Shown one piece after another: positions 5,701 to 60,002 of a DNA stretch of 64,000 nucleotides. Below the pieces are notes generated by a model. It did not search any database. It was given only the letters and a program-made list of their open reading frames with translations, and had not been told where the DNA came from. Position 1 is the stretch's first letter. Each line of letters starts with the position of its first letter. Source of the DNA: Ochromonas danica (taxonomy: Eukaryota; Sar; Chrysophyceae; Chromulinales; Chromulinaceae); the NCBI GenBank assembly GCA_015146655.1, contig VKHL01000039.1, positions 146,868 through 210,867 of the forward strand, given 5' to 3'. Both the position numbers and the translations under genes were made by a program.

Positions 5701-7022
5701 CTAACGATTGAGAGTGAGAGACGAGTCCTGATATTTCGAGAAGTCGAACACATCAGAGGCAGAGTGGTGAACACAACCACTTGGTGCATTCGACCACCCT
5801 CTCTTCACAGCACTGCTGATAGCAGGGATGAAGTCTTTCTTGCGAGAAACGAGATTACCAAGGTCCATATGGAAAGGTTCGCTGTAGTCGGCGGCAACAA
5901 GCTCTCCCTTGGGGAACGCAGAGACAGCCAAGCTACGCTCATTGGGACCGCAAAGGAGCAACGTAGAGCGCAGCTTAACAATATTAACCACAGCCAGAAA
6001 AGAAACCGAGACACCTTTCGCTTCTTTGTCTTCGCTCAACGCCAACAACAGCTCGGGAGTACGATTGAGGATCACCTCATCATCTGTCGTTTCAATGACT
6101 GCGAATGCAACAGAGCCATCGAACTTCGCCGTCTCATAAGTGAACACCTTTTGATCACCATTAATCAATTGATTAGCATTGAGACCAGCGAGTTCAGAAG
6201 ACTTCGCCTTGAACTGTTGAGAAGCAAGGTATTGAATATCTTCCACACCAGCAAGTTGTTCCAAGACAGCCACCATCAGACGATCCCATTCTGTTGTGGT
6301 GGGAGACTGCAAATTGAGAGTATCAGACAAGATAGCACACAACAACATGCCAGCAGTAGAGCGCTTGGGTCTGCGACGCAATGTCAAGAAGATGTGTGTG
6401 ATGATGGAGCTCATAGATCCCCAAGGACGAATATCAATGTAGATGGGCATATCCGTCACAATGGTGGCATTCTGAAGAGCATGATGATCAATAACACCCA
6501 CAATGCGATTCACCTGTCATGCAGAGAAGTGTATGTTAGAAGAGGCGTAAAAAGGTAAGTAAATAGCAAACTTACATCGATAGCCTTGTTAAGCTGGCTG
6601 GTCTGTTGATGATCGACCAAGCAAACTCCAGCTTGAGGATATTCAACGAGAAGCTCCTCAACAGGACGAGGCTTTTCCACGCCCCAAAGCTTGAGAGCGA
6701 ATGCAGTCTCAGAGTTGACCTCAGAAGCGCGAGCAGGAACACCACCATAGAGTTCAGCCGCACCAATAGCACCAGCAATGGAGTCCAAATCAGTGACCAA
6801 ATGACCACAGAAAATAGCACCAGAGAGAGCGCTTGGTAAGTAGTCCTTCATAGGAACCTCAAGGGGCAAATGATTTACATACTCGGTCGCGACCACTTTC
6901 CTTTTCTGAGACTCTCTTTCAATCACAGTCTGCTTACGATAAATATGAAAACTGGGAGATTCAGCATAGTCATCCATGGTAGGAGCCCCATCATCTAAAG
7001 TCATATCGTCAGAAATTTCCAT
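5701..7022 (-). CDS. ppaC: Family II (manganese-dependent) inorganic pyrophosphatase, copy 1
   Basis: Exon 1 is 7022-6576 and exon 2 is 6513-5701; the 62 bp intron (GTAAGT...GACAG) is phase 0. The product is 419 aa. Family II PPase (DHH superfamily) features: GHLVTDLDSIAGAIGAAEL metal-binding motif (HxxTDxDS), LVDHQQ, GVIDHH, and a C-terminal DHHA2-type segment ending in LVSRKK, where the Arg/Lys residues bind pyrophosphate in the family. Known role: hydrolysis of PPi to phosphate, driving biosynthetic reactions in the cytosol. No targeting peptide is evident. It carries about 25 more C-terminal residues than the second copy at 56494-57725, which is in inverted orientation. Parts of the two genes, including the intron, are almost identical while neighbouring parts differ (see findings). 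Confidence 0.9.
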
Positions 7023-16703: not shown

Positions 16704-17533
16704 AAAGATAGAAAATCAAAGAACTAGATAACTTTAATGATTTGAGAGGAATTAGATTGTGACAGAAGGAAGTGGATTGGATGACCAGGTTAACAGGGGG
16801 ATGAGTGATGACAGGTGAGAGAAAAAGATACGATCACAAACTGAAAAGAAGAAAGATTATCTTTAATTTTCAGTTTATTCAAAATGATCAAGAATGAAAG
16901 ATACTCAAAGAAACCTTCTTTTAATGTTTTCACAACAAGTAAAAAGGCTTTTGAATAGTAAATTATCTTCTTGATTTAGAAATGGCTTGAAGAGGGTGGG
17001 CCTTTGTGGTGGCGTGTGTGTTTGGTTCAAAAATCAAATTTGAAAGAAAAACTTAGTTTAAAAAGTCTGTTTTTGAAATTGCATGTTGCTCTTCTAAAGG
17101 TCGATTTATTGAAAACTTGACATTTTGAACATTGATCAAGAGGACTGTCCAAACAAACAGACGCAACAAGGAAGTAGACACTCCGTTGTTCTAGTACATT
17201 TTGGATCCTAATTATGATATACCTATACTCGAATGAGGTATGGTGGAAAGGTAAGTGTTGATTCACTATGAGGCTAGTTTTCTCCAAATCAACCTAAAAA
17301 GTGCAACAAATAAAAACTAAGATCTCTCCTCTGGCCATGTTCATGACTATACACTTGATGCCACCTGAGTTAATCACAAGTAAAAAAGAAAACCCAAAAC
17401 TGCGACAAAAGACATGTTTTATTTTGCTTGCCAGATCTATGTACACCAATGCCACAATATCATGGCGTCTACAAACAATGACACGGAAACTAAATACACA
17501 ATGATAAGCAGACATTTTGAGGACAATGAAGAC
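16704..17533. other. intergenic region, no gene recognised
   Basis: 830 bp between the cyclin start and the 3' end of the first twin gene. Only short chance frames in AT-rich sequence. The last 50 bp (about 17483-17533) are already shared with the region downstream of the second twin (about 19415-19465), so the duplication extends a little beyond the stop codon. Confidence 0.5.
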
Positions 17534-18328
17534 TTATCCACCAAACTTCGCCCATCTTCTTTCTATCTGACGTTGCATGGATTCCACTCTAGCTCGCAAT
17601 ACAATCAGAAGAAAAAACCCAAAACAGGCTGCAACTAGCCCGATGCCAACTGGAAGTTCACTGCGAAAGCTCTTGGGAAATTGTTGATGATTGCTGCTGG
17701 CTACATAAGGCACAATTGTAGGTTGAGCAGTGGGAGGGTCGGCATCTAACCCCACTCTGCTGTTCCTCACAGCTAACATACCAACTGAAGTAGAAGCTTC
17801 CAAATCATCAAACACAAGAAGTTTACTTCGTTGGAAGATGTCAGAAGAAGGACCATCTTTTAATATCCTCAGGATTGCCGTAGCAAGGCCATCTTCTGGG
17901 AGAACAGGAGAAGTGTGAAGTCCTCGCTGATTAGCTATCGTCACTGTCACTTGCATGTCTTCTCTGGCTTCACTAGATGGCTTGCTAGAACGAAGACTGC
18001 TGATTTTAGGTTCGACTGAGAGAACAACAACAGAGGACTCATTATCGCAACTGCACTGCCATTGTTCACCATCTGCATTGAGGACACGGCAAGTCTCTTC
18101 AGCAAAAATAGTTTTGATTTTCTCTTCATCCAAAGGAGAAGAATTGGATATAGCCACATTCACCACATGGTAAATAATATTTCTCTTGTTGGGAAGAAGG
18201 GCAGTCTTCCTCTCATCAGGAATTATTTCATTTTGCTGTGGGACCACCTCAGCTGCATTGCTTAAATAGTGTTGAAAGAAAAGCAACACAATGGTTGCTA
18301 GTAAACGACATAAGGAGTTCAGCACCAT
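17534..18328 (-). CDS. Unknown type I membrane protein, tandem twin 1
   Basis: 264 aa, single exon, taking the ATG at 18328, which is the start shared with the second twin; the frame is open further upstream to 18442 but that part is not conserved. Residues 1-26 are a signal peptide (core LLATIVLLFF, ending SNAA). A soluble region of about 190 residues with two close Cys (QWQCSC) plus one in EETC follows. A single transmembrane helix (IGLVAACFGFFLLIVL) comes next, then a short basic tail ending RRWAKFGG, probably cytosolic. I do not recognise a domain. It lies 1.1 kb from a nearly identical copy (19466-20260) in the same orientation, at a 1,932 bp offset. Confidence 0.75.
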   Translation of the reverse strand: MVLNSLCRLLATIVLLFFQHYLSNAAEVVPQQNEIIPDERKTALLPNKRNIIYHVVNVAISNSSPLDEEKIKTIFAEETCRVLNADGEQWQCSCDNESSVVVLSVEPKISSLRSSKPSSEAREDMQVTVTIANQRGLHTSPVLPEDGLATAILRILKDGPSSDIFQRSKLLVFDDLEASTSVGMLAVRNSRVGLDADPPTAQPTIVPYVASSNHQQFPKSFRSELPVGIGLVAACFGFFLLIVLRARVESMQRQIERRWAKFGG

Positions 18329-19465
18329 ATGAATGACCCAACAACCGGTGCTGTGTTTTATAAGGACAGCAACATTCTGCAACAGGTACAGTACAGCACC
18401 CCCCACACCACGCACGGAGCAGGGAAACTGCTGTTGCGACATTTTTCATTCTCACCATTTTTGAAGAATTCTCAATGGCTACTTCATTAAAATCGCTGAA
18501 AGTTTGACCATATATTTGAATGGATAGAGAAAACAGAGAAACGGGGTTTGCTGTGCAATATCTGCAATTGAAGCCTCAAAATTGAAATTTAAAAATGCTG
18601 TTTGAAATTCGTCAAAAACTGGGATATAGCAAGACACAGTCAACAATGAATCGTCAAACCGAGTCTGTTCGTATTACTAGTCATGCTTTATCTCTGGTAA
18701 AAAGGATTGCAGCCATGCCTCATAGAATGTCGAGAAAATGTCTGAAGAAGATCAAATGACGAGGAAATGTCAGTTCCGCTGAGTGAATTACATAACTTTT
18801 AGTGTATTACATACATTTCCCACGCACTAATACTACTTTAAAGGTTAGAAGTAAAAGACCTTTATGCATTTAAGAGAAAAAAGACTTCCAACATTGACGA
18901 TTGAGGGTATCCAAAACATGTAGCATGTCCAACTGATGCCAACCATCTTTTTACCGCCAAATGAAAACAAGTTACACGACTGTAAATCGTCTTGGAAAGA
19001 AAAACTAATATGATTTTGAAAAGCAGCATCATTACGCCTCATGCAACTAATCGATTTAGATACGGTGAAGAACACTCAGGTCTACTTCCAAATTAACTTG
19101 TTTAACATGAAAAAGAGGGATCCTGATGAAGTTATAGGAGTTTGAATACACTTGAGTTTTTTATGAATGGGTTAAAACACAATGGCAAAAAAATATTGTT
19201 TTGAATACTTTTTTTGATGAATATGTTCTTACTTAGATACTGAATCAAACGCAATTGAAATTAATGCATAATATTAATTACATCAAAAGTTATCGACAAT
19301 AAACATTTTGTCGCAAATCAGCTTTCCCCGCGTGATTTACTTTTTCGCCCAGTTCTGACGGGAAATACTGTACAACATCATCATACACCATAGAAGAACA
19401 TAGAAACTTAACACACAGAAACTAAATACACAATGATAAGCAGACATTTTGAGGACGATAAAGAC
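18329..19465. other. intergenic spacer between the twin genes
   Basis: About 1.1 kb of AT-rich sequence. The bases immediately upstream of ATG resemble those of the other copy only weakly. No gene, RNA or repeat recognised; probably holds the promoter of twin 1 and the 3' region of twin 2. Confidence 0.5.
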
Positions 19466-20260
19466 TCATCCACCAAACTTCGCCCATCTTCTTTCCAGCT
19501 GACGATGCATGGATTCCACTCTAGCTCGCAATGCAATCAGAAGAAAAAAACCAAAACAGGCTGCAACTAGCCCGATGGCAGTTGGAAGCTCACTGCGAAA
19601 GCTTTTGGGAAACTGATGATGATTGCTGCTGGCTACATAAGGCACAATTGTAGGTTGAGCAGTGGGAGGGTCGGCATCTAACCCCACTCTGCTGTTCCTC
19701 ACAGCTAACATACCAACTGAAGTAGAAGCTTCCAAATCATCAAACACAAGAAGTTTACTTCGTTGGAAGATGTCAGAAGAAGGACCATCTTTTAATATCC
19801 TCAGGATTGCCGTAGCAAGGCCATCTTCTGGGAGAACAGGAGAAGTGTGAAGTCCTCGCTGATTAGCTATCGTCACTGTCACTTGCATGTCTTCTCTGGC
19901 TTCACTAGATGGCTTGCTAGAACGAAGACTGCTGATTTTAGGTTCGACTGAGAGAACAACAACAGAGGACTCATTATCGCAACTGCACTGCCATTGTTCA
20001 CCATCTGCATTGAGGACACGGCAAGTCTCTTCAGCAAAAATAGTTTTGATTTTCTCTTCATCCAAAGGAGAAGAATTGGATATAGCCACATTCACCACAT
20101 GGTAAATAATATTTCTCTTGTTGGGAAGAAGGGCAGTCTTCCTCTCATCAGGAATTATTTCATTTTGCTGTGGGACCACCTCAGCTGCATTGCTTAAATA
20201 GTGTTGAAAGAAAAGCAACACAATGGTTGCTAGTAAACGACATAAGGAGTTCAGCACCAT
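19466..20260 (-). CDS. Unknown type I membrane protein, tandem twin 2
   Basis: 264 aa, same layout as twin 1: signal peptide, Cys-containing extracytoplasmic region, one transmembrane helix near the C terminus and a basic tail. The first approximately 215 residues are identical to twin 1. Differences cluster in the last 50: SSNHHQ for SSNHQQ, ELPTAIG for ELPVGIG, LLIAL for LLIVL, and SMHRQLE for SMQRQIE. These are conservative, so the transmembrane and tail segment is under constraint. The next gene upstream on this strand is DPH5, whose 3' end is 196 bp away. Function unknown. Confidence 0.75.
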   Translation of the reverse strand: MVLNSLCRLLATIVLLFFQHYLSNAAEVVPQQNEIIPDERKTALLPNKRNIIYHVVNVAISNSSPLDEEKIKTIFAEETCRVLNADGEQWQCSCDNESSVVVLSVEPKISSLRSSKPSSEAREDMQVTVTIANQRGLHTSPVLPEDGLATAILRILKDGPSSDIFQRSKLLVFDDLEASTSVGMLAVRNSRVGLDADPPTAQPTIVPYVASSNHHQFPKSFRSELPTAIGLVAACFGFFLLIALRARVESMHRQLERRWAKFGG

Positions 20261-20456
20261 ATGAACGATCTAACCACTGGACTATCTTGTAGACTACTAG
20301 TGTTTGGAAGCACAGTTTCTGCAAGAGCTGGAGAGCAAAAACCGCCAAGGCAGCAGGTGATAAAAATAGTCTAAATTGACAAAATATGGTAAAATCCCTT
20401 TGTTGCTTTTAACCGGAAATTGCACCATCATCAATCATCAAACACTATAGAACACA

Positions 20457-34538: not shown

Positions 34539-37500
34539 TTAGAATCCTATATATGATCGACCTTTTGGTCTAAGAATTTCTCTTGGCTTTGGACGATTCA
34601 ATTCTTCTTGTTCCTCTTGTCGTGCTTGTTGCTCTGCAGCAAGCTTACGTCGTTCTGAGTCTGCTTGTTTACGACCTAATCGACCACGATAAGCAGCAGC
34701 TAGCTTCATTGCAGCAACATTTCTCTCAAATTGAGAGACACCCTGCTGTTGCTGTTGTTGTTGTGGTTGTTGTTTTGATTGTTGTTGAGATGGTGCTGGT
34801 CGCCTTCCTCTTGCTACACCAGCATTTGTTGGTCTACTACGTAGTTTAGCTTGTTGTACATCTTCATAACCTCCATACAGATCCACATTCTGAGCATCTA
34901 CTCCTTGCCTTGCTAAACGACCACGAATATCTTCACGATCTCGTCCTTTCATTCCTAACTCTTGTTCAACGGTTTGAATAGATTGAGAACCATCTGCTTT
35001 TGTTACTAAGACACGTCGATTGGCAGTATTAGCAGCTTGACCATTACCTCCAGCAATACGCCAAGCATTACGAATCATTAGTTCAAAGTAATCATCACCA
35101 TCAATCGAAGCAGAAACTTCCTTATAATAATCTTCAAATTCTTCATAAGAAACAGTACCATCAGGACTATGACGATCCCATAATCTCATGAACTCTTTGG
35201 CTGCTTCTTGTGGAGTTTTCTTACCAGCGATGACATCAGGATGAGCTTGGAAGTTATAACGTTCCATGATTTCATCAACAGTAATAAAACCTGAACGATC
35301 TGTATCTAATATATTGAAAGCCATTTGAACCATTAATCGACGACGATCATTCAGATCACCACGAACTCCAATTAATAATTCATCAATATCAATGAGGCCA
35401 TTATGATCACGATCTATATAACATCACATGTAAACAACAACAACAACAAAAAGGGTATAATTAGTTATATGATTAAAAAACATGAAATCAATTATTAGTG
35501 TAGTTACCAAAATAAGTAAATAGATCATCTAGTTCACGAAGATTTAGTTCAACACCATAATCTAATAAACCATATTTAAGTTCTTCTTTAGATAATTTAT
35601 GATCTCCACTACTATCCATGATAGATAATATACGTGCTAATCCTTTAATACCAGCTTGTTCACCACAACGTTCTAAAATCTTTTTTATTACACGTTCTAT
35701 TACAGTTATTCCCTTTTGTGATGTTTTATCTTTTCCATAACGATCACTTAAAAGGTTATGAATCTTAATCACTTCTATAGAACCTAATTTTTGAGGATCT
35801 ATAATATTCCAAAGAGCAGTTAATTGTTGACGATTTAGACAAGGATCTAAAGTTGATAATCTACGAATAAATGCTCCTTGTGCTATTCTTGGACTAGTAT
35901 TAACTGATGAAACTTGTAACTTTAAACATAATGTTTCAAGACTACAAGGTGGAGAATAGAGCATTTGATGTAATGTTTGATAGGCATCAAATCCAGATGT
36001 TGTAGTATTAGTATCCATAGCAGAAGAAGAAGGACGAGGGCTATAGTCATTTGATGGTACACTTGATTGATCACCACGTCCAGGCATTTGTTGTTGTTGT
36101 TCTGCCCAAGCCTCTCGAGGCACACCACCAGGTCGAGTAACAGGTTGACCACCACCACCAACACGATTACTATCAGATCTACCATTTGAGCGACTTCTTC
36201 CTTGTCCAGCTGCAGGACCACTTGGTCGATTCAAATTTATCATCCCACCTTTATTACGTTGTTGTTTAGCTTGTTGTACATCTTCATAACCTCCATACAG
36301 ATCCACATTCTGAGCATCTACTCCTTGCCTTGCTAAACGACCACGAATATCTTCACGATCTCGTCCTTTCATTCCTAACTCTTGTTCAACGGTTTGAATA
36401 GATTGAGAACCATCTGCTTTTGTTACTAAGACACGTCGATTGGCAGTATTAGCAGCTTGACCATTACCTCCAGCAATACGCCAAGCATTACGAATCATTA
36501 GTTCAAAGTAATCATCATCATCAATTGATGCACTTAATTCTTTATAATAATCTTCAAATTCTTCATAAGAAACAGTACCATCAGAAGAATCTTGTCTTTC
36601 CCAAACTTTCATTAAATCTTTGGCTGCTTCTTTAACAGTCATTTTACCTGCACGAACTTCAGGATGCCAATTTAAATCATAAACTGTAAGAATTTCATCT
36701 ACTGTAATAACACCTGAATGATCTGTATCAAGAATATTAAATGCTAATTGTACAAGTGATTTTCGTCGATTATTTAAATCTCCACGTATACCAATTAAAA
36801 ACTCTGTAATATCAATAAATCCATTACGATCACGATCAAAATAGAGGAAAACTTGTTCTAATTCAGTTGGTGTTAAATTAATACCATAATCACGTAAACC
36901 ATAACGTAATTCATCACGTGATAATCGTTTATCACCATTATCATCCATAATGGATAATAGTTTAGCAATACTTCGTAAACCATTTGATCCACCTCGTTCA
37001 ACAATTTTATTACGTACTTTATCAACAATATCACCAACATCTAATGCTTTTGCAGCAAGTCTACGAGCATCCATAACATTATTATTGTCTTGACCTATAC
37101 GACCATTTGTAGTTGCAGCATGCTTTTGTTTCATATTATTATTATCAATATTTAATCCACGGCTACTTGGTCGATGTAATAAGTTGTTGTTGTTGTTATT
37201 ATTATTAGTATAAGCAAGAGGTTTATTTCTATTTCGTGGTGTTCCATAAGCAGAAGATGTAGTACTTACAGTAGATTGTGTAGTAGAAGCACTCATAGGT
37301 CGACGAAAAGCATTAGGACCTATTGTAGCATTATTACGATTTTGAGGTCTACCAGCTGAAGTAGGTCTTTCATTACGAAGGATAGTCGAAGTTGAACTAA
37401 ATGGATTATTTCTACCCGCTGATACAGGTCGTACTCCTCGATTACCACTACCACGAGGAAGAGGAGGATCATCACGACCAATATCTAGACTAGTATTATA

Positions 37501-38179
37501 TTGCCTTTGTTGATCCTTTTGTAAACCTTCTTCAAACATTTTTGATGCTTTTAATAATGATGATGTCTTTTGTGCTGTTTTCTTAAATCGATCATTACCA
37601 TTACCACTACCTTGTTGTTGATTGAATAACATTAGAAAATCAGGCATAAAGCTATATGTTAATTCATTATTTGTCATTTGAATCTCTGCAACACGATGAA
37701 TAGTTAATAGCACTGAACGTCCTTCAAATAAAACTCGTCCTAACGCAGTCATAAACTTCATATAGATTTTCTCAACGACTTCTCGTTCTATCCCTGTGCC
37801 AGCTTTTATTTGAGCAAAATTAACACTAGAAGTTGGTACATTTTCAGTAGTAACTTGACCACGTTGTCTAATTTTGAATTGATTACCAAATTCTGTTGCC
37901 ATAGTAAAAATAGGTTCTTGTTTTAAACTAAATCCAAATGTACCAAAACTACTCAAACGAACTGCTTTACGTTGAGTCATTTGTTGTTTAACCACATTAC
38001 CTATCAAGAAGAAATTCACTGTCATCTTGTCTTGGTTAAAGTAATAATCATCAAAACAAAAATGTCTTACCAATTTCATGCCAGACGGACAAAACTTCTT
38101 CTAAGGTTACTTTACCATTCATTGCTTTTGCTGTAAGTTCAGCAATTTCATGTGTTGAAATATCAATAGAAGCATTCAT
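34539..38179 (-). CDS. CCDC81-type HU domain protein fused to two calcyphosin-like EF-hand modules
   Basis: Exons 38179-38071, 38000-35508 and 35413-34539 (introns 70 and 94 bp, phase 1), giving 1,158 aa from the first in-frame ATG; an extra 5' exon upstream is possible because a good acceptor lies just before that ATG. Residues about 10-150 match the paired bacterial-HU-like domains of CCDC81 (TLEEVLSVWHEIG, RLSSFGTFGFS, LLTIHRVAEIQ), a centrosome/cilium protein. Residues about 170-340 are low complexity. Two calcyphosin-like EF-hand modules (about 370-540 and 810-970; loops such as DDNGDKRLSRDE, DRDRNGFIDITE, DTDHSGVITVDE) are each followed by a tail ANTANRRVLVTKADG...GGYEDVQQAK. Tails are identical at DNA level. 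It probably links calcium sensing to the flagellar apparatus. Confidence 0.8.
34845..35096. repeat. intragenic direct repeat, copy 1 (about 252 bp, identical to 36264-36516)
   Basis: Encodes the post-EF-hand tail (NAWRIAGG... to GGYEDVQQAK) of the second module. By eye no mismatch with the copy 1,420 bp away, while the flanking EF-hand coding sequences differ at many positions. Confidence 0.85.
36264..36516. repeat. intragenic direct repeat, copy 2 (about 252 bp)
   Basis: Partner of 34845-35096, encoding the same tail after the first EF-hand module of the HU/EF-hand gene. Confidence 0.85.
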
Positions 38180-38780: not shown

Positions 38781-39911
38781 CTACGCTAGGAAGTCCGCAT
38801 GGATAGCGCCCAGGTGAAGCAAAGCATTCGCAGCGTCTGACTTCAACACACCACTCTCTTCAACTGCCAACTCGCGACATGCTAAATGAATTACCTCTGA
38901 TAGAGTGAGACCTTCATCACTTATACCCAACTCTCTTCGCAGGCGATCCACGATCTCGCTCAGAGGAATGTTTGACCATTGATCAACCGTGACCACTGGA
39001 TTGCTCTCACCATTGTTGTTGCTGTTGTCGTTTGTTGTGTTGTTACTATTATCATTGGTAATCTCTTCTGCACCATCATCGAGGGGAATCATAGACACGT
39101 CTACTGGAAAACTCTCGTCGTCGAGTATTTCCACAGCGCATTGAATAGGGATGAGACGCTGGCTGAAGTGTCCAAATAAGGAATTGCCTTCCTCAACAAC
39201 ACGAGGCCTCCTATCCATCTCTTGTCTTTGGTAAGGTACTGGGGGAGGAATGAAAGCAACAGCACGAACCCTACGCAGTAAAAACCACACACGCACAAAC
39301 AGATAATTGATTCAGTTAGTGTTAAGCTTGAACAGCAAAGCTCAATCATCACCAACATCAAGTACTTACTCAGGCGGAATGAGGTTATTGATTTTCTCAG
39401 CAGTCAGCTCTAAGCTGTTCGATTGCTCCACCACCCATGGAGAGCAAATAGCTACCTCCGTCTTCGTGCAGATAGCGATGCGTCTCTTTATGATGTGGGC
39501 CGCAGATTGGCTTTCATGATCTTCAACGGTTTGGATGTGAGCTAAAGCTACATCAGAGCAGACCACTGTGGTGTGTTCAGCGCATGGCGTCTTTTGACGT
39601 TTCTCCAAAGCGATCTTCCCTCCATTCGCTTTGTCTTTGTAGAAGTGCCAGGCTTCGATTTGAATGTGGGAGTTCCAGGCTAATAAGGGTGGTAACCATG
39701 GCACGATACAAAGTGCTGCAATAAGTAAACATGGTATCATGGCTTGCGTGCGTTCTACTTCGATTGTTAGCGACGATTCGTCACTAAACACGATTCTCAT
39801 CGTATCTGGAGCGTCAGAAGGAGGATCATACATTGGCCAGTTACAGCAGCAAAGACCTCCCGATTGTTCCCAATCAACTTCATTTCGAGGACACATGCAT
39901 CTCATTTTCAT
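38781..39911 (-). CDS. Undescribed Cys-motif family, array copy A
   Basis: Exons 39911-39370 and 39270-38781; the 99 bp intron is phase 2. Product 343 aa. Architecture shared by all four family members: (i) an N-terminal CxCPxNxxDW...GLxCCNxP motif in the first 30 residues; (ii) a middle beta-rich-looking region interrupted by a Pro-containing hydrophobic patch (MIPCLLIAALCIVPWLPPLLAW) and ending in SPWVVEQSNSLELTAEKINNL; (iii) encoded by exon 2, a PPPVPY linker, an Asn-rich variable stretch and a helical C-terminal domain with WSNIPLSEIVDRLRRELG...LSEVIHLACRELAVEESGVLKSDA. No signal peptide. Copy A has one more residue in exon 1 and a longer Asn stretch than B and C. I recognise no known family. 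The hydrophobic patch and Cys pairs could mean membrane or metal binding; that is inference. Confidence 0.8.
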
Positions 39912-40529
39912 CTTTTCTTTTCTTCACAAGTCATAAATTCTCTTCAAATTGAGGCTAAAGATTATGACTCTAAGTTGAGGTCATCAAGGAGGGTCACTGT
40001 CGTGATGTGTTTGATGAAGTGCTCTTGTCTTGAGAGTCTTCACCATCAGATTGCCGGCATGTGTTCGATGAAGTGGGCCAGCAGGGGGAGGGTGAAAGGG
40101 GAGAGACAGAGGCGTGGCAAAAAGAGGCTTCCAAATCCGTAAATTCGATTTTCAAATGTCGAAAAGTCAACTTTGAAAGACAGCGGCACTACCCACTTCC
40201 ACCTCATAAACGAAGTGCGCTGTGCTGTGAGATCATCAACGGAAAGGAGGCAAACAGAAACAATGAAAATATTCTTTAGAAACCACTCCAGATAATGCCC
40301 ACTAGACTAGACTATAATCCTTAACAGCAATGACTTACAATAGGACAAGTGAGAAATAATGATTAATTACCATTGCCCATCAAAAGAATCAAATACACGT
40401 GGAACAATATTAGTAGTAAAAGTATTCTACTTAAGTAATTACAACAAACATATATATGAAGTCTAAAATGAATTATAAGCTAGCAGGCGGGCTAGCATAT
40501 GAAGGAATTACGCTTCATAAATGCTTGCC
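39912..40529. other. spacer between array copies A and B
   Basis: About 620 bp of repeated-unit spacer. Contains TTGAGGTCAT and TGCCGGCATGTGTTCGATGA segments that recur in the B-C spacer (near 41880-41910) and partly upstream of C, showing that the duplication unit includes promoter and 3' sequence. Confidence 0.7.
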
Positions 40530-41635
40530 CTACGCCAGGAGATCCGCATGGACAATGCACAGGTGTCGTACGGCATTAACCGCGTCTGACTTTAACACAC
40601 CACTCTCTTCAACTGCCAACTCGCGACATGCTAAATGAATTACCTCTGATAGAGTGAGACCTTCATCACTTATACCCAACTCTCTTCGCAGGCGATCCAC
40701 GATCTCGCTCAGAGGAATGTTTGACCATTGATCAACCGTGACCACTGGATTGCTCTCACCATTGTTGTTGCTGTTGTTGTCGTTGTTATTATTATTGGTA
40801 GTCGCTTGTGCACCATCATCAAGGGGAATCATGGACACGTCTACTGGAAAACTCTCGTCGTCGAGTATTTCCACTGCGCATTGAATAGGGATGGGTCGCG
40901 GTCCAAACAGGGAATTGCCTTCCTCAACAACACGGGGTCTCCTATCCATCTCTTGTCTTTGGTAAGGTACTGGGGGAGGGATGAAAGCAACAGCGCGAAC
41001 CCTATATATTCAAACACACACATAGACCAACAATTGATTCAGTTAGTCTTCCGCTTGATCATTAGTGTTCATTCCTCCCCAACGTCAAGTACTTACTCGG
41101 GTGCAATGAGGTTATTGATTTTCTCAACAGTCAGCTCTAAGCTGTTCGATTGCTCCACCACCCATGGAGAGCAAATAGCTACCTCTGTCTTCGTGCAGAT
41201 AGCGATGCGTCTCTTTATGATGTGGGCCGTAGATTGGCTTTCATGATCTTCAACGGTTTGGATGTGAGCCAAAGCTACATCAGAGCAGACCACTGTGGTG
41301 TGTTCAGCGCACGGGGTCTTTTGGCGCTTCTCCAAAGCGATCTTCCCTCCATTCGCTTTGTCTTTGTAGAAGTGCCAGGCTTCGATTTCAATATGGGAAG
41401 CGGCCAGTAATGGTGGCATCCATGGCAAAACACAAAGTGCTGCAATTAGCATGCAAGGTATCATGGCTTGCGTGCGCTCTACTTCGATTGTTAGCGACGA
41501 TTCGTCACTAAACACGATTCTCATCGTATCTGGGGCGTCAGAAGGGGGGTCATACATTGGCCAATTACAGCAGCAAAGACCTCCCGATTGTTCCCAATCA
41601 ACTTCATTTCGAGGACACATACATCTCATTTTCAT
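40530..41635 (-). CDS. Undescribed Cys-motif family, array copy B
   Basis: Exons 41635-41097 and 41001-40530; the 95 bp intron is phase 2. Product 336 aa. Start codon lies exactly 1,724 bp from that of copy A. Exon 1 is nearly identical to copy C (differences include LTVEKIN versus LTAEKIN and HIIKRR versus HSVKRR). Exon 2 lacks the GHFS residues seen in A and C (NSLFGPRPIP), and the C terminus reads VRHLCIVHADLLA. The Asn-rich stretch is shorter than in A. All conserved Cys and the C-terminal helical block are intact, so it is presumed functional. Confidence 0.8.
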
Positions 41636-42243
41636 CTTTTCTTTCTTTACAAGCTGTTAGTGTTCTAACTTGAAGTGACTGGAGAGCTTTGGGAGCTAAT
41701 GATGATGATCCAAGTTGAGGTCATTAAAGAATGCAGTGTGGTGGTGTGTTGGATGAAGAGCTCTCGGAGTTTCACCATAAGATTGCCGGCATGTGTTTGA
41801 CGAAGTGGACCAAGAATCATCGGTGGCGAGGTGTCGTGATGTGTTTGATGAAGTGCTCTTGTCTAGTCTTCAGAGTCTTCACCATCAGATTGCCGGCATG
41901 TGTTCGATGAAGTGGGCCAGCGCATAGACTAAACTCGATTTTCGAAAAGTCAACAGCTCATGCAGCACCAGCAGGAGCACTTCCAACTTCCGTCCCACAA
42001 ACGGAGTGCGCTGTCAACGGAAACAACTCACAATGAAAAATATTCTTCGGAAAACCCCAGATAATGCCAACAATGATCCTTAACAGCAATGACTTACATT
42101 AGAACAAGTGAGAAATAACGATTTATTAACATTGTCCATCAAAAGCATCATATATGCGGAACAAATATATATGAGATCTAAAATGAATTATAAGCTAGCC
42201 CGGGACCAACATATGAAGGATATATGGTTCAAAAATGCTTGCT
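41636..42243. other. spacer between array copies B and C
   Basis: About 610 bp. Contains two nearby copies of a segment with GATTGCCGGCATGTGTT and (T/C)GA(T/C)GAAGTGG (about 41780 and 41888), the same words as in the A-B spacer. Confidence 0.7.
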
Positions 42244-43359
42244 TTATGCTATGAGATCCGCATGGACAGCGCCCAGGAAATGCAAAGCATTCGCAGCGTC
42301 TGACTTCAGTACGCCACTCTCTTCAACTGCCAACTCGCGACATGCTAAATGAATTACCTCTGATAGAGTGAGACCTTCATCACTTATACCCAACTCTCTT
42401 CGCAGGCGATCCACGATCTCGCTCAGAGGAATGTTTGACCATTGATCAACCGTGACCACTGGATTGCTCTCACCATTGTTGTTGCTGTTGTCGTTGTTAT
42501 TGATAGTCGCTAGTGCACCATCATCAAGGGGAATCACTGATACGTCCACTGGAAAACTCTCGTCGTCGAGTATTTCCACTGCGCATTGAATAGGGATGGG
42601 TCGCGGACTAAAGTGACCAAACAAGGAACTGCCTTCCTCTACAACACGAGGTCTCCTATCCATCTCTTGTCTTTGATAGGGTGCTGGGGGAGGGATGAAA
42701 GCAACAGCACGAATCCTACATAGTCATACACACCCACACATACATGCACACAGATAATTGATTCAGTTAGTCTTCTACTTGATCAACAGTGCACAATCAT
42801 CAACAACGTCAAGTACTTACTCGGGTGCAATGAGGTTATTGATTTTCTCAGCAGTCAGCTCTAAGCTGTTCGATTGCTCCACCACCCATGGAGAGCAAAT
42901 AGCTACCTCCGTCTTCGTGCAGATAGCGATGCGTCTCTTTACGCTGTGGGCCGTAGATTGGCTTTCATGATCTTCAACGGTTTGGATGTGAGCCAAAGCT
43001 ACATCAGAGCAGACCACTGTGGTGTGTTCAGCGCACGGGGTCTTTTGGCGCTTCTCCAAAGCGATCTTCCCTCCATTCGCTTTGTCTTTGTAGAAGTGCC
43101 AGGCTTCGATTTCAATATGGGAAGCGGCCAGTAATGGTGGCATCCATGGCAAAACACAAAGTGCTGCAATTAGCATGCAAGGTATCATGGCTTGCGTGCG
43201 CTCTACTTCGATTGTTAGCGACGATTCGTCACTAAACACGATTCTCATCGTATCTGGGGCGTCAGAAGGGGGGTCATACATTGGCCAATTACAGCAGCAA
43301 AGACCTCCCGATTGTTCCCAATCAACTTCATTTCGAGGACACATACATCTCATTTTCAT
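42244..43359 (-). CDS. Undescribed Cys-motif family, array copy C
   Basis: Exons 43359-42821 and 42715-42244; the 105 bp intron is phase 2. Product 336 aa. Start codon is again exactly 1,724 bp from that of copy B. The ATG at 43359 is used because the open frame further upstream has no ATG. Exon 1 differs from copy B by only a few residues. Exon 2 keeps SLFGHFSPRPIP like copy A. Same Cys motif, hydrophobic patch and C-terminal helical block as the other copies. Function unknown. Confidence 0.8.
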
Positions 43360-44600
43360 CTTTTCTTTTCTTTTCTTCACAAGTTCCTGGAGTTCTAAAT
43401 TCACGCCAATGGAGAGCTTTGGGAGCTAATGATGATGCTCCAAGTTGAGGTCATCAAAGAAGGCCGCGGTGTGATTGTTGTGTTGACGAAGTGATGGTCA
43501 TATGGTCATCAGCCATCAATCTTAAATAGCTGGCTTCAAAAAGTCGCAAAAATGGACTATTTTCTACACTATCCTAGGCCTGGAAATTCCTAGGAATTTC
43601 GAACCTCAATGACGTTCGGTCATGAATGGCCAGCTCGAGCTGAAGCTCAGAGTGGATTCTGGGATCAATTACTGCAAAGTTGCTGTGTGGAATTGCTAAT
43701 TACTAGTATTAATTGCAATAATGGCATGTTATAAATGCTAGCATTCCGCTTTCAATGATGTCCAATGGAGGTCTCAATGCAGTGATAGTCAACAGTTCTT
43801 GTCATTAAAGCTCTCCAAGGGGTATTATCATAAAGCTCTCCTTCCATCCTATTTCGAAGTAGCTAATGTCTCTTACAGCCTGTGACCATCACCCAGGATT
43901 TTGTTTGCACTGAAGAAGTTGTCAAGTTTTGCGAATGGCATTTTTGGAAGGTATCGAAAATATGTTCTGGGAGCGCATTGAACTTTGAAGGCATTGGACA
44001 GAAAGAAATAGCAGAAACTTGTCTGCAAGGTTGCTCTTTGGTTTCTACTCTAATAAGAACGGGTAATATCACAAAGCTATAAAAAAGAACTAACTTTTAC
44101 TACAGCTTTTCGAACTGCAGAAATTCTACAAGAAAGTTTTGCTTTGTGCTTCACCAACATAAGATCTTATACTATGGGGACTGGCTTTCTCCCACATGGA
44201 GTTGTCACCTATCAGCAGTAGTCATTTATTGATTTATGGATTTATTTGATTCTCCTGAACGTTCGTCCAGTTGCTCCTGAACGATCTAATCGTTGTCATC
44301 CTGTCACATGAACCAGATTTTAACTACTAAACACTGCAGCAATGGATTGGTGTCCTCAACCGGACGAAAATTATCAAGTTCTAACAGGCTGAGATTACCC
44401 ACGCAAGACAACAATATGTCCACCCTCCGCTGCTCTGTTGCGGTGTCTCGGTCTGTTCAAGCAGTTCGACCTGCAACAACAATAACAATAACAATAACCA
44501 AAGCATCTACAACTTTTTTTTGTTATAGTGAATTAACTAACTACTAACTACTATTACTGTTACTATCGACGAACTAAATTTGTGAAAGAAATAATCAATC
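43360..44600. other. intergenic region between array and calpain
   Basis: About 1.2 kb with no credible gene. Contains a perfect 18 bp palindrome at 43583-43600, a short repeat of GTCCAGTTGCTCCTGAACG-like words near 44255-44290, and AATAACAATAACAATAAC at about 44480-44500. A/T-rich sequence immediately upstream of 44601 presumably holds the calpain promoter. Confidence 0.55.
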
Positions 44601-49371: not shown

Positions 49372-51039
49372 ATGCAAAAAGAACATCGATTACTCTTAGC
49401 CATTGGATTATCTACAACCTTTATGATTATTGAAGTCATTGGAGGTTATTGGGCTAATTCTATTGCTATTTTCTCTGATGCTGCTCATTTATTAACTGAT
49501 ATTGCTGGTTTTGGAATTGCTCTGGTTGCTGCCATTGCTGCCAAAGCACCTGGTACAAAAACATTAACTTTTGGTTTTGCTCGTGCTGAAGTCTTTGGAG
49601 CTTTAGGAAGTGTATTAAGTTTATGGGTAATTACTGCTTTCCTTCTTTATGCTGCCTATGATCGTGCTATTCGATGGCTTCAAGGAAATCCTGAACCTGT
49701 AAATGGATTTTTAATGTTTGCTGTGGCATGCTTTGGTGTTTTGGTGAATATCTGTCTGGGTTGGGTGTTTCATGATGAGCATGGTGGAGCTTTCCATCCT
49801 GCGCATTCTCATGATCATGGTCACTGTGAGCATCATGGATCTCCAAAGGATGATGATCATCATGTAGCATCTCCTTCACATGACCATGAACATGCACATG
49901 AGCACGGCTCACACGAGCATGACCATGATCACAATCATCACAATGATAGGGATGAAGAAGAAGGTCATTGGACATGCGTTGGTGATGAATGTGGCGATCA
50001 TGAGCATGAAGGTAATGGGCATGATCATAGTCATAGTTCTAAGGGTCATGAACATGATCATGGTCATAGTTCTAATGGTATTGAGCATGATCATGATCAC
50101 GAACGCCTTCCTCTTTTACCTAACAGCCAAAAGAATAGCAAGAAATATGGAGGATGTGAAGGGCATGGTCATGATCATGGACATACAACACCAAAGCCTA
50201 AAGAGAAAGTACATGATGATCATGATGGTCATAGTCATGGTCACAGTCATGGCCACCATGGCTCTGATGTTAACATTGAAGCTGCTTACTTACATGTGCT
50301 GACAGACCTTATTCAGAGTATTGGTAAGTGAGATGTGCACCTGAACTATTTCTGTTTGTTTGAAATTACAGGATTATTGTATTGGTTTGCTTCAGGTGTA
50401 GCTTTGGCTGGATTGATTATGTGGAGATGGGATCATGTGGAAATTATTGATCCCATCTGTACATTGGTGTTCTCTATTGTTGCTCTTTATTCTACAGTTC
50501 CTCTACTTCATCGCGTCTCAGTCATTCTCTTCGAGGGAGCTCCATCACATGTAAACACTTTATTATCTTGTGTACCTTGTAAACTGTCGTGATTGACGAA
50601 GCATCTATTAAATAGATTGATTGGGAGATTGTCATGCAGCGCTTATCAGACATTCCTGGTGTGTTAAATGTACATGACTTGCACATTTGGTCGATCTCTT
50701 CCAAGTCTGTCTCATTGACTTGTCATATTCGTGTAAGTTGTCTCATATTAGTGTTTCTCCAGGATGATTCTAATGATGACATTTAACATTTCTTTGCCTG
50801 TGTACTACATGGTACAGGCTGAGAATCCACAAGTAGTTCTTCGCGAGGCACACAATGTCTGTCGCAGTTTGGGCATTGATCATGCAACCATTCAAGTTCA
50901 TGATGCTGCGGATGAGGCTTTCTGTTATAGTCAAACCTGTGATTGGGAACATGCTATTGAGATTGAAGAAGGTGCAAATCATATTGAGCGAAAGAATCTT
51001 TGCATGACAACTCGTAATTTAGGGGGACAAAGTTCTTAA
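49372..51039 (+). CDS. Zinc transporter of the cation diffusion facilitator (SLC30/ZnT) family
   Basis: Exons 49372-50323, 50372-50550, 50616-50732 and 50818-51039; introns of 48, 65 and 85 bp. Product 489 aa. Six transmembrane helices are expected; DAAHLLTD in helix 2 and HVLTDLIQSIG in helix 5 provide the HxxxD zinc site. Between helices 4 and 5 is a very long His/Asp-rich loop (about residues 130-300, HDH and HGH repeats), typical of vesicular or vacuolar ZnTs. The C-terminal cytosolic domain has VHDLHIWSIS and the AHNVCRSLGIDHATIQV fold. It moves zinc out of the cytosol into an organelle in exchange for protons. The 48 bp intron is the shortest in the window. Confidence 0.95.
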
Positions 51040-56493: not shown

Positions 56494-57725
56494 ATGAGTG
56501 CTCCTATTTCGGATAAAGAATATACTGATTCTGAAGGTTTTCATATGAGTCGTAAGCGAACTATCGTAGAAAAGGAGTATGCTTCTCACAAGGAAGTCGC
56601 ACATGAGTATGTTAGCCACTTGCCACGAATTGATGCACTTCCTGAAGTTGAAGCATATGTTCCTCAAGCTCTCTCTGGTGCTATTTTCTGTGGTCATTTG
56701 GTCACTGATTTGGACTCTATTGCTGGTGCTATTGGTGCGGCTGAACTCTATGGTGGTGTTCCTGCTCGCGCTTCTGAGGTCAACTCTGAGACTGCATTTG
56801 CACTTCAACTATGGAATGTTGAGAAGCCTGTTCCTATTGAAGAATTGCTTGTTCGGCTTCCTCAAGCTGGAGTTTGCTTGGTCGATCATCAGCAGACCAG
56901 CCAGCTGAACAAGGCTATCGATGTAAGTTTGCTATTTGCTTACCTTTTTACGCCTCTTCTAACATGCACTTCTCTGCATGACAGGTGAATCGCATTGTGG
57001 GTGTTATTGATCATCATGCTCTTCAGAATGCCACCATTGTGACGGATATGCCCATCTACATTGATATTCGTCCTTGGGGATCTATGAGCACTATTATCGC
57101 TCATACTTTCCTTACCCTTAACAGACGTCCCAAGCGCTCTACTGCTGGTATGTTGTTGTGTGCCATCTTGTCAGATACTCTCAACTTGCAAGGTCCCACC
57201 ACAACAGAATGGGATCGTCTGATGGTGGCTGTTTTGGTGGAGTTGGCTGGTGTGGATGATGTTCAACATCTTGCTGCAAAGCAATTTAAGGCTAAGAGTC
57301 ACGAATTGGAAGGGCTCTCTGCTTATCAGCTTATTACTGGCGACCAGAAAGAATTCTCTTTCCAGACCGACAAGTTCCAGGGCGTGGTTGGCTTTGCTGT
57401 CATTGAGACCACTGATGATGAAGTTATTCTTAAGAAGACTGCAGAACTTCTTCTCGCGCTGGCTGAAGATAGAGACAAGAAAGGTCTTAGTACACTCTTT
57501 TTGGGCGTGGTTAACATCGTCGCTTTGCGAACTACCTTATTGCTCTGTGGTCCCAAAGAGCGAAGTCTCGCCAAAGCTGCTTTTCCACATGCCAAGCTCA
57601 TTCCCTCGGATGGCGTCAATGAACCTTTCTTGATGGATCTCGGTAATCTTGTTTCGCGCAAGAAGGAGTTTATTCCTGCTGTCACTGGTGCTATCAAGAG
57701 GGGCTGGGAGGAGCCCTCTATCTAA
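56494..57725 (+). CDS. ppaC: Family II (manganese-dependent) inorganic pyrophosphatase, copy 2
   Basis: Exons 56494-56922 and 56985-57725; the 62 bp phase 0 intron is at the same site as in copy 1 (5701-7022) and differs from it at about two bases. Product 389 aa. GHLVTDLDS, DHQQ, DHH and the C-terminal SRKKEFIP residues are intact. The first 60 residues and the DHHA2 domain have diverged considerably from copy 1, while the metal-binding core is nearly identical at DNA level. Cytosolic PPi hydrolysis is the expected role. Two copies could give isoforms with separate expression; that is inference. Confidence 0.9.
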
Positions 57726-58099: not shown

Positions 58100-58783
58100 C
58101 TATGAAGACGAAGCTGGAGGTTCAATAACCATTGACCCAAATCGCTTAGTTGCTTTTGGGGGAAGATGCACCTCAGTAGTTTTCATCATCTCTTCAAAGC
58201 GCATTAAACGATTATAAGGTTTCACTTTCTTCTTCCTGTGATTATGAACAGTTGTTGTTGTCATGAAAGGAGAGGAAGTATGAGTTAATCGATTCTCTGG
58301 ATAAGAATAGTCTTGCCTGATATCACTATTTGCACTGTTTGGAATAGCAAAGTCAGAATTCACTTGATTGATTGCTTTCGCAACAGTATTTCCCTCAAAA
58401 CTATCGGTGAAACCTAACTTGGATTTACTACCCATCCAATGCTTCATCCGTCTTTCAGTTTGATCACGTTTTCTTGCATCTAAATCCAACAAAACTTTAT
58501 CCAAGAATTGCTTATGGCCTTTACTAAAGACTTCTTCTCGACCAGCTAAGTCTGAGTTATCCTTGAGAATAGGACAAAGTGTCATAATAGCAGCTGTACG
58601 AAAATCTGAGGTGAGTTTGCCTTGTGGATCTGTGACAGGTATGATATCTCCTTCAAATTGTGATCTTATACCAGTATGGTTTAAAGATGGAAAGTTAGAA
58701 ACACTATTAAAGTCATGACCTCCACTTGGTGCAGGAACATGAAAAGTATAAGAAATTTTATCTAAATATGGCTTATGATTCAT
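58100..58783 (-). CDS. Unknown protein
   Basis: Single exon, 227 aa, ATG at 58783. No signal peptide or transmembrane helix. Polar and mostly without strong hydrophobic core; contains a basic helix region (LDLDARKRDQTERRMKHWM) and a basic KKKVKPYNRLMRFEEMMKT stretch near the C terminus. Residues 8-55 (FHVPAPSGGHDFN...) are Ser/Pro/Asn-rich. The composition and length recall small axonemal or microtubule-associated proteins, but I cannot assign it. It is divergent from the array family member D, with 263 bp between starts. Confidence 0.6.
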   Translation of the reverse strand: MNHKPYLDKISYTFHVPAPSGGHDFNSVSNFPSLNHTGIRSQFEGDIIPVTDPQGKLTSDFRTAAIMTLCPILKDNSDLAGREEVFSKGHKQFLDKVLLDLDARKRDQTERRMKHWMGSKSKLGFTDSFEGNTVAKAINQVNSDFAIPNSANSDIRQDYSYPENRLTHTSSPFMTTTTVHNHRKKKVKPYNRLMRFEEMMKTTEVHLPPKATKRFGSMVIEPPASSS

Positions 58784-59046
58784 TTTCTAAATAGATTCAA
58801 TCCATCAACATGTGCATAGATCAGATAGAGGCTAGAATGCAACCTAGAGAAACAGACAACAATCAATCCAGAGGAATTGCACTGTAAACAACAAAACTGG
58901 TTGGAGAGAGGGAAACGTTGAGATCTAAATCGGTCGGTTTTCAATGAAACGGCCCAAGGCTGGGAAGTTAAAGTCTGCTAACTTCTGTGTGTGGTTGGTG
59001 TGAGTGAGAGAATCACAACCAAACTGATGAAGAAGAAAGAGATGAA

Positions 59047-60002
59047 ATGGTTCGTTGTTGTTGTCCAATAAATCATATTGATTGGCAAGAAAAGAAAGGT
59101 TTACTATGTTGTAACTATCCATTATGTGAACCATCTACTTCTGATCCACCAAGTCTACGAATTGTTCATGAAGATAATCATTCCATTACCTTAGAACTTG
59201 ATCATCCTAATATTATACCAGGATGTTTACTGTGTTGCGCTTCGATTGTACCGTGCTTTAGTTGTCTCTTAGTTGCCACTGATAGTGTTACGATTAGTGC
59301 TTGGAAGGTCTATTTTGAAAATGGCAAAGTCTGCCTGATGCGTCGATCAAAATCTTACTGGGATGAGACGACTTTTATCCTTGCTGATAATGTTCTCCAT
59401 GCAAGTGTTGAAACAGTGGATAGCAGTGATTCCACAGGTGCTGTGGTCATACAAAGACGATTGACTCTCCATTGCTCATCTGGTCTAAACCATTCTTCTC
59501 CATGGAAGATGGACAATTCCAATCATCTGGACATTGTTGCAAACAAGATTAATCAACTCAATCCTAATGGGTAAGGGATCTATCTTTTTCCTCTCTACAG
59601 GTTCTTTGAGTTGGTGATGGTGATTCGTTTGTTGTTAGAACTCTGATTACACCTCCCGCTGTGCCACAACCGCAGAAAATGGATCGTACTCCTAATGATT
59701 ACTCTGCCATATCGGTGGGGATGGTCAATCATGGAACAATTGTCCCTCCGGAAATGAATGGCGGTCCTTCGATGATTATGGTGGAAGGACAGGTTGTTTA
59801 TGACGAATGGGATAATGTTCCACTAGTTGCACTGGTTGATCGTATTCGAGGGGAGATAGGGCTGAAAGATACATCTTTGTCTCTATCCGAAGTTGTGCAA
59901 TATGCTTGCACACAACTATCTATTCATTCTACTGGGGTGGTTAAGACAGATGCCATATCGGTTGCCAAACAATTGGGAATCTCTCGTGTGAGCCTTTCTT
60001 GA
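59047..60002 (+). CDS. Undescribed Cys-motif family, diverged member D
   Basis: Exons 59047-59570 and 59639-60002; the 68 bp intron is phase 2 at the position equivalent to that in array copies A-C. Product 295 aa. N terminus CCCPINHIDW...GLLCCNYPLCEP, hydrophobic patch IIPGCLLCCASIVPCFSCLLV, a middle region ending SPWKMDNSNHLDIVANKINQL, and the C-terminal block WDNVPLVALVDRIRGEIG...LSLSEVVQYACTQLS...GVVKTDA match A-C across the whole length. It lacks the Asn-rich stretch. The hydrophobic patch is more Cys-rich than in A-C. This diverged copy shows which residues are under selection. A later splice donor at 59988 could extend the protein (see findings). Confidence 0.78.

Follow-up and report, generated by a model that had tools for sequence, protein, structure and literature searches.

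A locally duplicated two-exon gene family in Ochromonas danica with a predicted PH-like fold and a predicted insert at the position of the EROS membrane helices

The genome assembly of the alga Ochromonas danica (31.2 Mb in 337 contigs) carries at the end of contig C39 a small family of two-exon genes, which we characterize here with regard to gene structure, copy number, predicted fold, and possible role. All positions refer to the 64,000-nt stretch of this contig that was analyzed (the window; contig positions 146868-210867). Four genes of the family lie in the window. Genes A, B, and C form a tandem array on the minus strand, and gene D follows 15.7 kb after gene C on the plus strand (Table 1). 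The genes encode proteins of 343 (A), 336 (B and C), and 295 (D) amino acids (aa), and in each of them, two exons flank a GT..AG intron (phase 2, 68-105 nt) whose position in the protein is conserved; as far as can be judged from the DNA sequence, these introns are presumably spliced as given. An original prediction made from the same DNA had described a common exon structure and intron phase for the tandem copies and had added the plus-strand gene at 59047-60002 as a diverged member with the same order of blocks and the same intron position. Both claims hold, with protein identities of 92-95% among A-C and 36-38% between D and these three.

Table 1. Positions of the four genes and of the spacers between the tandem copies.
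Feature	Position in window	Strand	Basis
Gene A exon 1: Cys-rich N-terminus and predicted PH-like domain interrupted by a hydrophobic insert	39370-39911	-	
Gene A intron, phase 2, 99 nt	39271-39369	-	GTAAGT..TAG and protein alignment
Gene A exon 2: linker that includes an Asn-rich stretch, then C-terminal block of three predicted helices	38781-39270	-	
Gene B exon 1	41097-41635	-	
Gene B intron, phase 2, 95 nt	41002-41096	-	
Gene B exon 2	40530-41001	-	
Gene C exon 1	42821-43359	-	
Gene C intron, phase 2, 105 nt	42716-42820	-	
Gene C exon 2	42244-42715	-	
A-B spacer, 618 nt, islands in common with B-C spacer	39912-40529	-	
B-C spacer, 608 nt	41636-42243	-	
Gene D exon 1, diverged member	59047-59570	+	
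Gene D intron, phase 2, 68 nt	59571-59638	+	placed to keep exon 2 open and in alignment with A-C
Gene D exon 2	59639-60002	+	

Searches of the whole genome with exon 1 of D (E up to 1) and with exon 1 of C or the C-terminal block of D (each at E up to 10) returned exactly the loci A-D and nothing else in every case; these searches score the best candidates only, and very distant copies may escape them. Exon 1 of D recovered exon 1 of A at E 2e-31 and thus well past chance. An assembly artefact, i.e., a single locus assembled three times, had been raised as a possible explanation of the tandem copies and can be excluded because their introns are just 75-82% identical to each other. Gene D has a close neighbor in a minus-strand open reading frame (ORF; 58100-58783) for which Pfam gave no match at E up to 0.01; the two starts are only ~264 bp apart (58783-59047), so the two genes may have a two-way promoter in common.

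As had been noted in the original prediction, the ATG start codons of A, B, and C (39911, 41635, and 43359) are spaced by exactly 1,724 bp twice. This regularity is partly coincidence because insertions and deletions compensate each other and other parts of the array are spaced unequally, e.g., the stop-codon ends by 1,749 and 1,714 bp and the repeat families of the array by 1727/1724, 1749/1714, and 1731/1714 bp. The spacer, too, had been described as common to the copies, which is true of islands within it but not of its full length (618 and 608 nt). A 44-nt piece of the A-B spacer (40408-40451) is a dispersed short repeat with further copies (87-89% identity) on contigs C295, C27, C1, and C9, and the copy on C295 has TAGAATACT and TTACTACTAATA in common with it.

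Sequence identity is distributed very unevenly among the tandem copies. Exon 1 is 99.3% identical between B and C and 93.5% identical in the two comparisons with A, and the differences are bunched in patches within the coding sequence, some of which differ by as many as 14 of 50 bases. The longest identical aligned run between B and C spans 415 bases, while the maximum in 5,000 same-site shuffles was 192, and the corresponding runs of 184 (A-B) and 189 bases (A-C) also exceed their shuffle maxima (142 and 171 in 5,000 shuffles each). These runs are not well explained by constraint alone because other coding patches diverge so strongly, though the shuffle test gives no formal separation of gene conversion from local constraint. 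Diverged introns and spacers next to exon blocks with up to 415 nt of complete identity are more compatible with an older array homogenized by gene conversion between its copies than with one recent amplification. The original prediction of a recent local amplification, with selection for dosage or variety, is therefore only partly right and is weakened, given also that local duplicates are common in this genome. Pairwise ratios of non-synonymous to synonymous substitution rates (dN/dS) of ~0.16-0.24 among A-C indicate that the copies look constrained.

At the protein level, the N-terminal residues C5, C7, P8, N10, D13, W14, G19, L20, C22, C23, N24, and P26 (numbering of A) are invariant, as is a C-terminal block of the pattern W-x-N-x-PL...VDR-x-R-x-E-x-G...LSEV...AC...GV-x-K-x-DA in all four proteins. 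These motifs had been predicted as written, while a segment given as N-S-x-x-L needs correction to S-N-x-L-x5-K-I-N-x-L, the pattern that is invariant in the four. Each protein also has one strong, Pro-containing hydrophobic segment near residues 59-79, with a 19-residue mean hydropathy of 2.0-2.3. Like the gene structure, the four copies, and the conserved cysteines, this single segment can be read directly from the sequence. It had been described as a Pro-interrupted hydrophobic patch, and we reread it as a putative membrane insert on the basis of the models described below.

By sequence, the family appears to be undescribed as far as it was tested. With E values as high as 10 allowed, comparison of proteins D and C (two of the four) with Pfam, NCBIfam, and PHROGs yielded nothing but one chance-level match of protein C to the Pfam model PDT (prephenate dehydratase; E 0.09, 13 bits against a cut-off of 25.2). 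Exon 2 of D and the C-terminal block of A gave no match in Pfam at E up to 0.01. Among PDB sequences, no match was obtained with the whole-protein or exon 1 profile at E up to 10, and the profile of the C-terminal block gave two matches with a best E of 0.78, i.e., at the level of chance. No credible relative was found in viral contigs (exon 1 profile, exon 1 of C, and C-terminal profile; scans seeded by short peptide patterns), in bacterial and archaeal genomes (exon 1 profile; scan seeded by few short peptide patterns), or in phages by tblastn (two records, best E 5). One viral-contig locus from the search with exon 1 of C matches over 14 residues only, and since its frames read as a phage contig, we regard it as a chance hit. 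The contig scans do not establish a lack of distant relatives because a pattern-seeded control scan with the alga's own Ycf4 also came up empty in bacterial genomes, though Ycf4 was found in Synechococcus by another search; having covered viral, bacterial/archaeal, and phage collections, they say nothing about other algae. Publications on this family did not turn up, though an unnamed family is not findable by word search.

We therefore turn to predicted structure, for which AlphaFold2 was run with exon 1 of D as query and the other three genes as alignment rows (run 1) and with the whole of gene A, its intron read through, as query and the exons of the others as separate rows (run 2). The two queries are 37% identical over exon 1. 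In both cases, the best model shows seven main strands plus a short additional one, with a helix at the end of the part encoded by exon 1. Run 1 places the strands at residues 36-42, 46-54, 81-91, 94-101, 104-114, 116-127, and 133-143, the short strand at 148-150, and the helix at 160-171, and the order of elements is the same in both runs (strands 36-43 and 46-54, an insert, strands from 81/84 to 150/156, and a helix within 160-177). The Pro-broken hydrophobic segment, 26-29 residues long, falls between strands 2 and 3 in both models. Run 2 puts two short helices into this insert (60-69 and 74-78), where run 1 has none, and predicts helices 317-328, 337-347, and 355-367 for the C-terminal block; its helix 189-215 includes the read-through intron and is meaningless. 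Taken as the low-confidence predictions that they are, the models suggest a PH topology with an insert at the position known from EROS and three C-terminal helices.

Foldseek searches of a PDB library of 350,542 chains agree with this reading. The top match in both is 8kei_D, which is EROS (cytochrome b558 chaperone 1, CYBC1), a helper that keeps a human membrane enzyme stable, bound to NOX2-p22phox. For run 1, it was obtained at E 4.3e-3 with probability 1.00 and template modeling (TM) scores of 0.46 (query) and 0.49 (target) over 170 columns; for run 2, the values are E 7.8e-4, probability 1.00, and TM-scores of 0.24 (query) and 0.47 (target), with a query of 376 residues that includes the linker and the read-through intron. 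Lower down, run 1 lists PH-type entries (3dcx, 3hsa, USP37, SIN1, and BRAG2) with some unrelated ones interspersed, while in run 2, EROS is separated by a wide gap from the next match, a V-ATPase subunit at E 0.2, and the PH-type BRAG2 and APPL1 are found among weak, mostly unrelated matches. The best plain PH domain below EROS has E 9.7e-2 in run 1 and 0.37 in run 2. A viral structure library searched with the exon 1 model gave nothing at E <= 0.001 (best 0.05). Because the hydrophobic patch fits the insert position and EROS/CYBC1 tops both PDB fold searches, the family is probably not devoid of structural relatives, and we consider a PH-like fold fairly likely on the strength of these models. 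The earlier claim that no family can be named thus stands for sequence (Pfam, NCBIfam, PHROGs, and PDB sequences) but probably not for structure, where EROS/CYBC1 came out on top twice.

According to an AlphaFold model discussed in PMC9767466, EROS is a PH domain whose strands 2 and 3 are separated by two membrane helices, and the same organization is predicted there for PIGH. In the human complex, the membrane helices of EROS touch helices 2 and 6 of NOX2 (PMC12658887), and its beta-sheets touch the NOX2 strands that bind flavin adenine dinucleotide (FAD), so that EROS and FAD are mutually exclusive (PMC13296129). By the low-confidence models, the family would resemble EROS/CYBC1 (PF15169), with which it was compared via the Pfam model and the PDB structure only, in having a PH-like domain whose second and third strands are separated by a hydrophobic insert. 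Unlike EROS, it adds an N-terminal Cys cluster and a C-terminal block that is predicted to be helical, whereas the tail of EROS is short and predicted to be disordered (PMC9767466). A genome search with PF15169 was empty but does not show absence because 14 control genomes likewise gave nothing.

Similar comparisons can be made with three other groups. PIG-H (PF10181), a subunit of the GPI-GnT complex, is likewise predicted to combine a PH domain with a membrane insert (PMC9767466), but the family has no sequence match to it and the genome has a PIG-H-like exon of its own on contig C40, though a marginal one (26.2 bits against a cut-off of 25). Proteins with a bPH_2 domain (PF03703) and the bacterial PH domains of DUF1696 (3dcx and 3hsa) have a PH-like fold, as predicted for the family, and structures of DUF1696 and of other bacterial PH domains are weak fold matches. 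Pfam gave no match, and the one bPH_2 match found in the genome lies elsewhere, on contig C14 (E 2.5e-13). Ycf4 is a membrane-anchored assembly factor. The alga's own copy is separate from the family (C193:493-996, E 1.4e-55) and sits on a contig that we read as plastid, next to genes that we take to be psbE and ftrB. PMC13296129 terms Ycf4 (PF02392, photosystem I assembly factor) an ortholog of EROS.

From these parallels, we tentatively propose that the four genes encode a membrane-anchored PH-fold protein with a chaperone or scaffold role for a membrane protein, which seems possible to us but somewhat short of an even chance. While the fold is moderately supported, we infer the function, i.e., membrane topology, lipidation, the chaperone or scaffold role, client, and location, by analogy. 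The Pro-broken segment between strands 2 and 3 would dip into the membrane, and it may do so as a re-entrant or monotopic hairpin because 26-29 residues look too short for two ordinary membrane helices. The four invariant N-terminal cysteines would probably give a lipid anchor or a metal site, and a flexible linker would lead to the C-terminal three-helix block that might recruit a partner. Like EROS, the protein could hold a client membrane protein during its maturation, using its exposed beta-sheet together with its membrane insert. The genome has five matches to the ferric reductase NAD-binding family, two of which were examined; one frame has three of three domains of the ferric reductase/NOX type over the cut-offs and the other has two of three, with the membrane domain just below. 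Such proteins of the ferric reductase/NOX superfamily could be EROS-type clients.

A number of observations weigh against the predicted fold and the proposed role. The best of five models reached a mean predicted local distance difference test (pLDDT) score of 54 and a predicted TM (pTM) score of 0.56 in run 1 (other four 34.7-44.4) and of 45 and 0.33 in run 2 (other four 33.1-41.5). Since both runs draw on the same four genes, they are not independent evidence and check the choice of query only. The TM-scores against EROS remain below 0.5 with a root mean square deviation above 6, and none of the Pfam models Cybc1_Eros, Ycf4, PIG-H, and bPH_2 was listed by hmmscan for D or C, even at E up to 10. 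Alignment of exon 1 with the alga's Ycf4 by hhalign gave a probability of 0.1%, which with a shallow profile and a single Ycf4 sequence is a weak test. These points, i.e., low pLDDT and pTM, TM-scores just below 0.5, and the absence of sequence support in every library tried, would be expected if the fold assignment were wrong and the family were an unrelated beta-rich membrane-surface protein, e.g., one built around a metal-binding CxC...CC site, for which the invariant C5, C7, C22, and C23 of protein A would be suitable. We nevertheless think this rather unlikely because two queries with only 37% identity over exon 1 produced one topology and one top PDB match, and because the Cys-rich stretch lies outside the predicted core and at low confidence in both models.

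If the fold is right, the role may still be a different one. PH folds serve many functions, and most of their members are not chaperones. The NOX-like genes sit on other contigs without any tie to the family, and the insert of 26-29 residues has a single hydrophobic peak, while EROS has two membrane helices in an insert of 41 residues (21-61; PMC9767466). The short insert, the N-terminal Cys cluster, and the presence of soluble and bacterial PH domains among several further fold matches could also be explained by a PH-like lipid- or protein-binding adaptor that the Cys cluster and the hydrophobic loop tether to a membrane and that has no role in the folding or assembly of other membrane proteins. 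This seems less probable to us, though a serious contender, given that EROS with its membrane insert outranks all listed plain PH domains (4.3e-3 versus 9.7e-2 and 7.8e-4 versus 0.37). By contrast, we consider it very improbable that the genes are just a lineage-specific duplicated family without strong function that is kept by drift and gene conversion. Identical exon blocks next to diverged introns and the many local duplicates of this genome would fit such a scenario, but the open frames, the conserved splice sites, and the low dN/dS among A-C argue against it, as does the retention of both blocks in D at 36-38% identity.

The proposed chaperone or scaffold role is of interest because EROS, Ycf4, and PIG-H indicate that membrane complexes can have a helper or scaffold in which a PH fold is combined with a membrane hairpin. 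In its most specific form, our proposal would place the EROS architecture outside the known EROS, Ycf4, and PIG-H sequence families, as an assembly chaperone or scaffold in which a re-entrant hairpin replaces the two transmembrane helices, cysteines anchor an added N-terminus, and an added C-terminal domain acts in recruitment. This full combination is improbable. If true, the design would be more widespread and would have arisen or diverged more often than profile searches reveal, and a protist would offer a handle on how such helpers choose their clients. Should the fold prediction fail, the genes would be no more than an ordinary lineage-specific family that undergoes gene conversion.

Local duplication is not restricted to this family. 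A light-harvesting array (C224:8673-16382) has four equal-scoring copies spaced by exactly 2,407 bp and is thus more regular than the A-C array; the light-harvesting family PF00504 has 47 matches in the genome when counted per exon, which together with the Ycf4 gene on its presumed plastid contig marks the organism as a photosynthetic alga. The window itself contains three further duplicate pairs. Two tandem copies of a minus-strand gene with a C-terminal hydrophobic segment (17481-18333 and 19413-20265) are 98.1% identical over 853 nt, and the proteins of their ORFs (17534-18442 and 19466-20260) are 97.7% identical over 264 aa; the first copy gave no match in Pfam at E up to 0.01. Inverted paralogues ~50 kb apart (5701-7022 on the minus and 56494-57725 on the plus strand) are 89% identical over 613 nt and 74-75% identical as proteins, which presumably resemble a DHH-type inorganic pyrophosphatase, though one N-terminal piece found nothing in Pfam. 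The third pair consists of adjacent minus-strand EF-hand genes (34539-35333 and 35488-38079) with a common block that is 85.5% identical over 580 nt, and the longer gene also has a CCDC81-type HU domain. In view of these duplicates and the array on C224, selection for dosage or variety is less favored as a reading of the A-C array. Elsewhere in the assembly, one contig was read as mitochondrial. A tRNA-Ser (act) called by ARAGORN at 49595-49684 lies inside a cation efflux frame (49372-50331) and is probably false.

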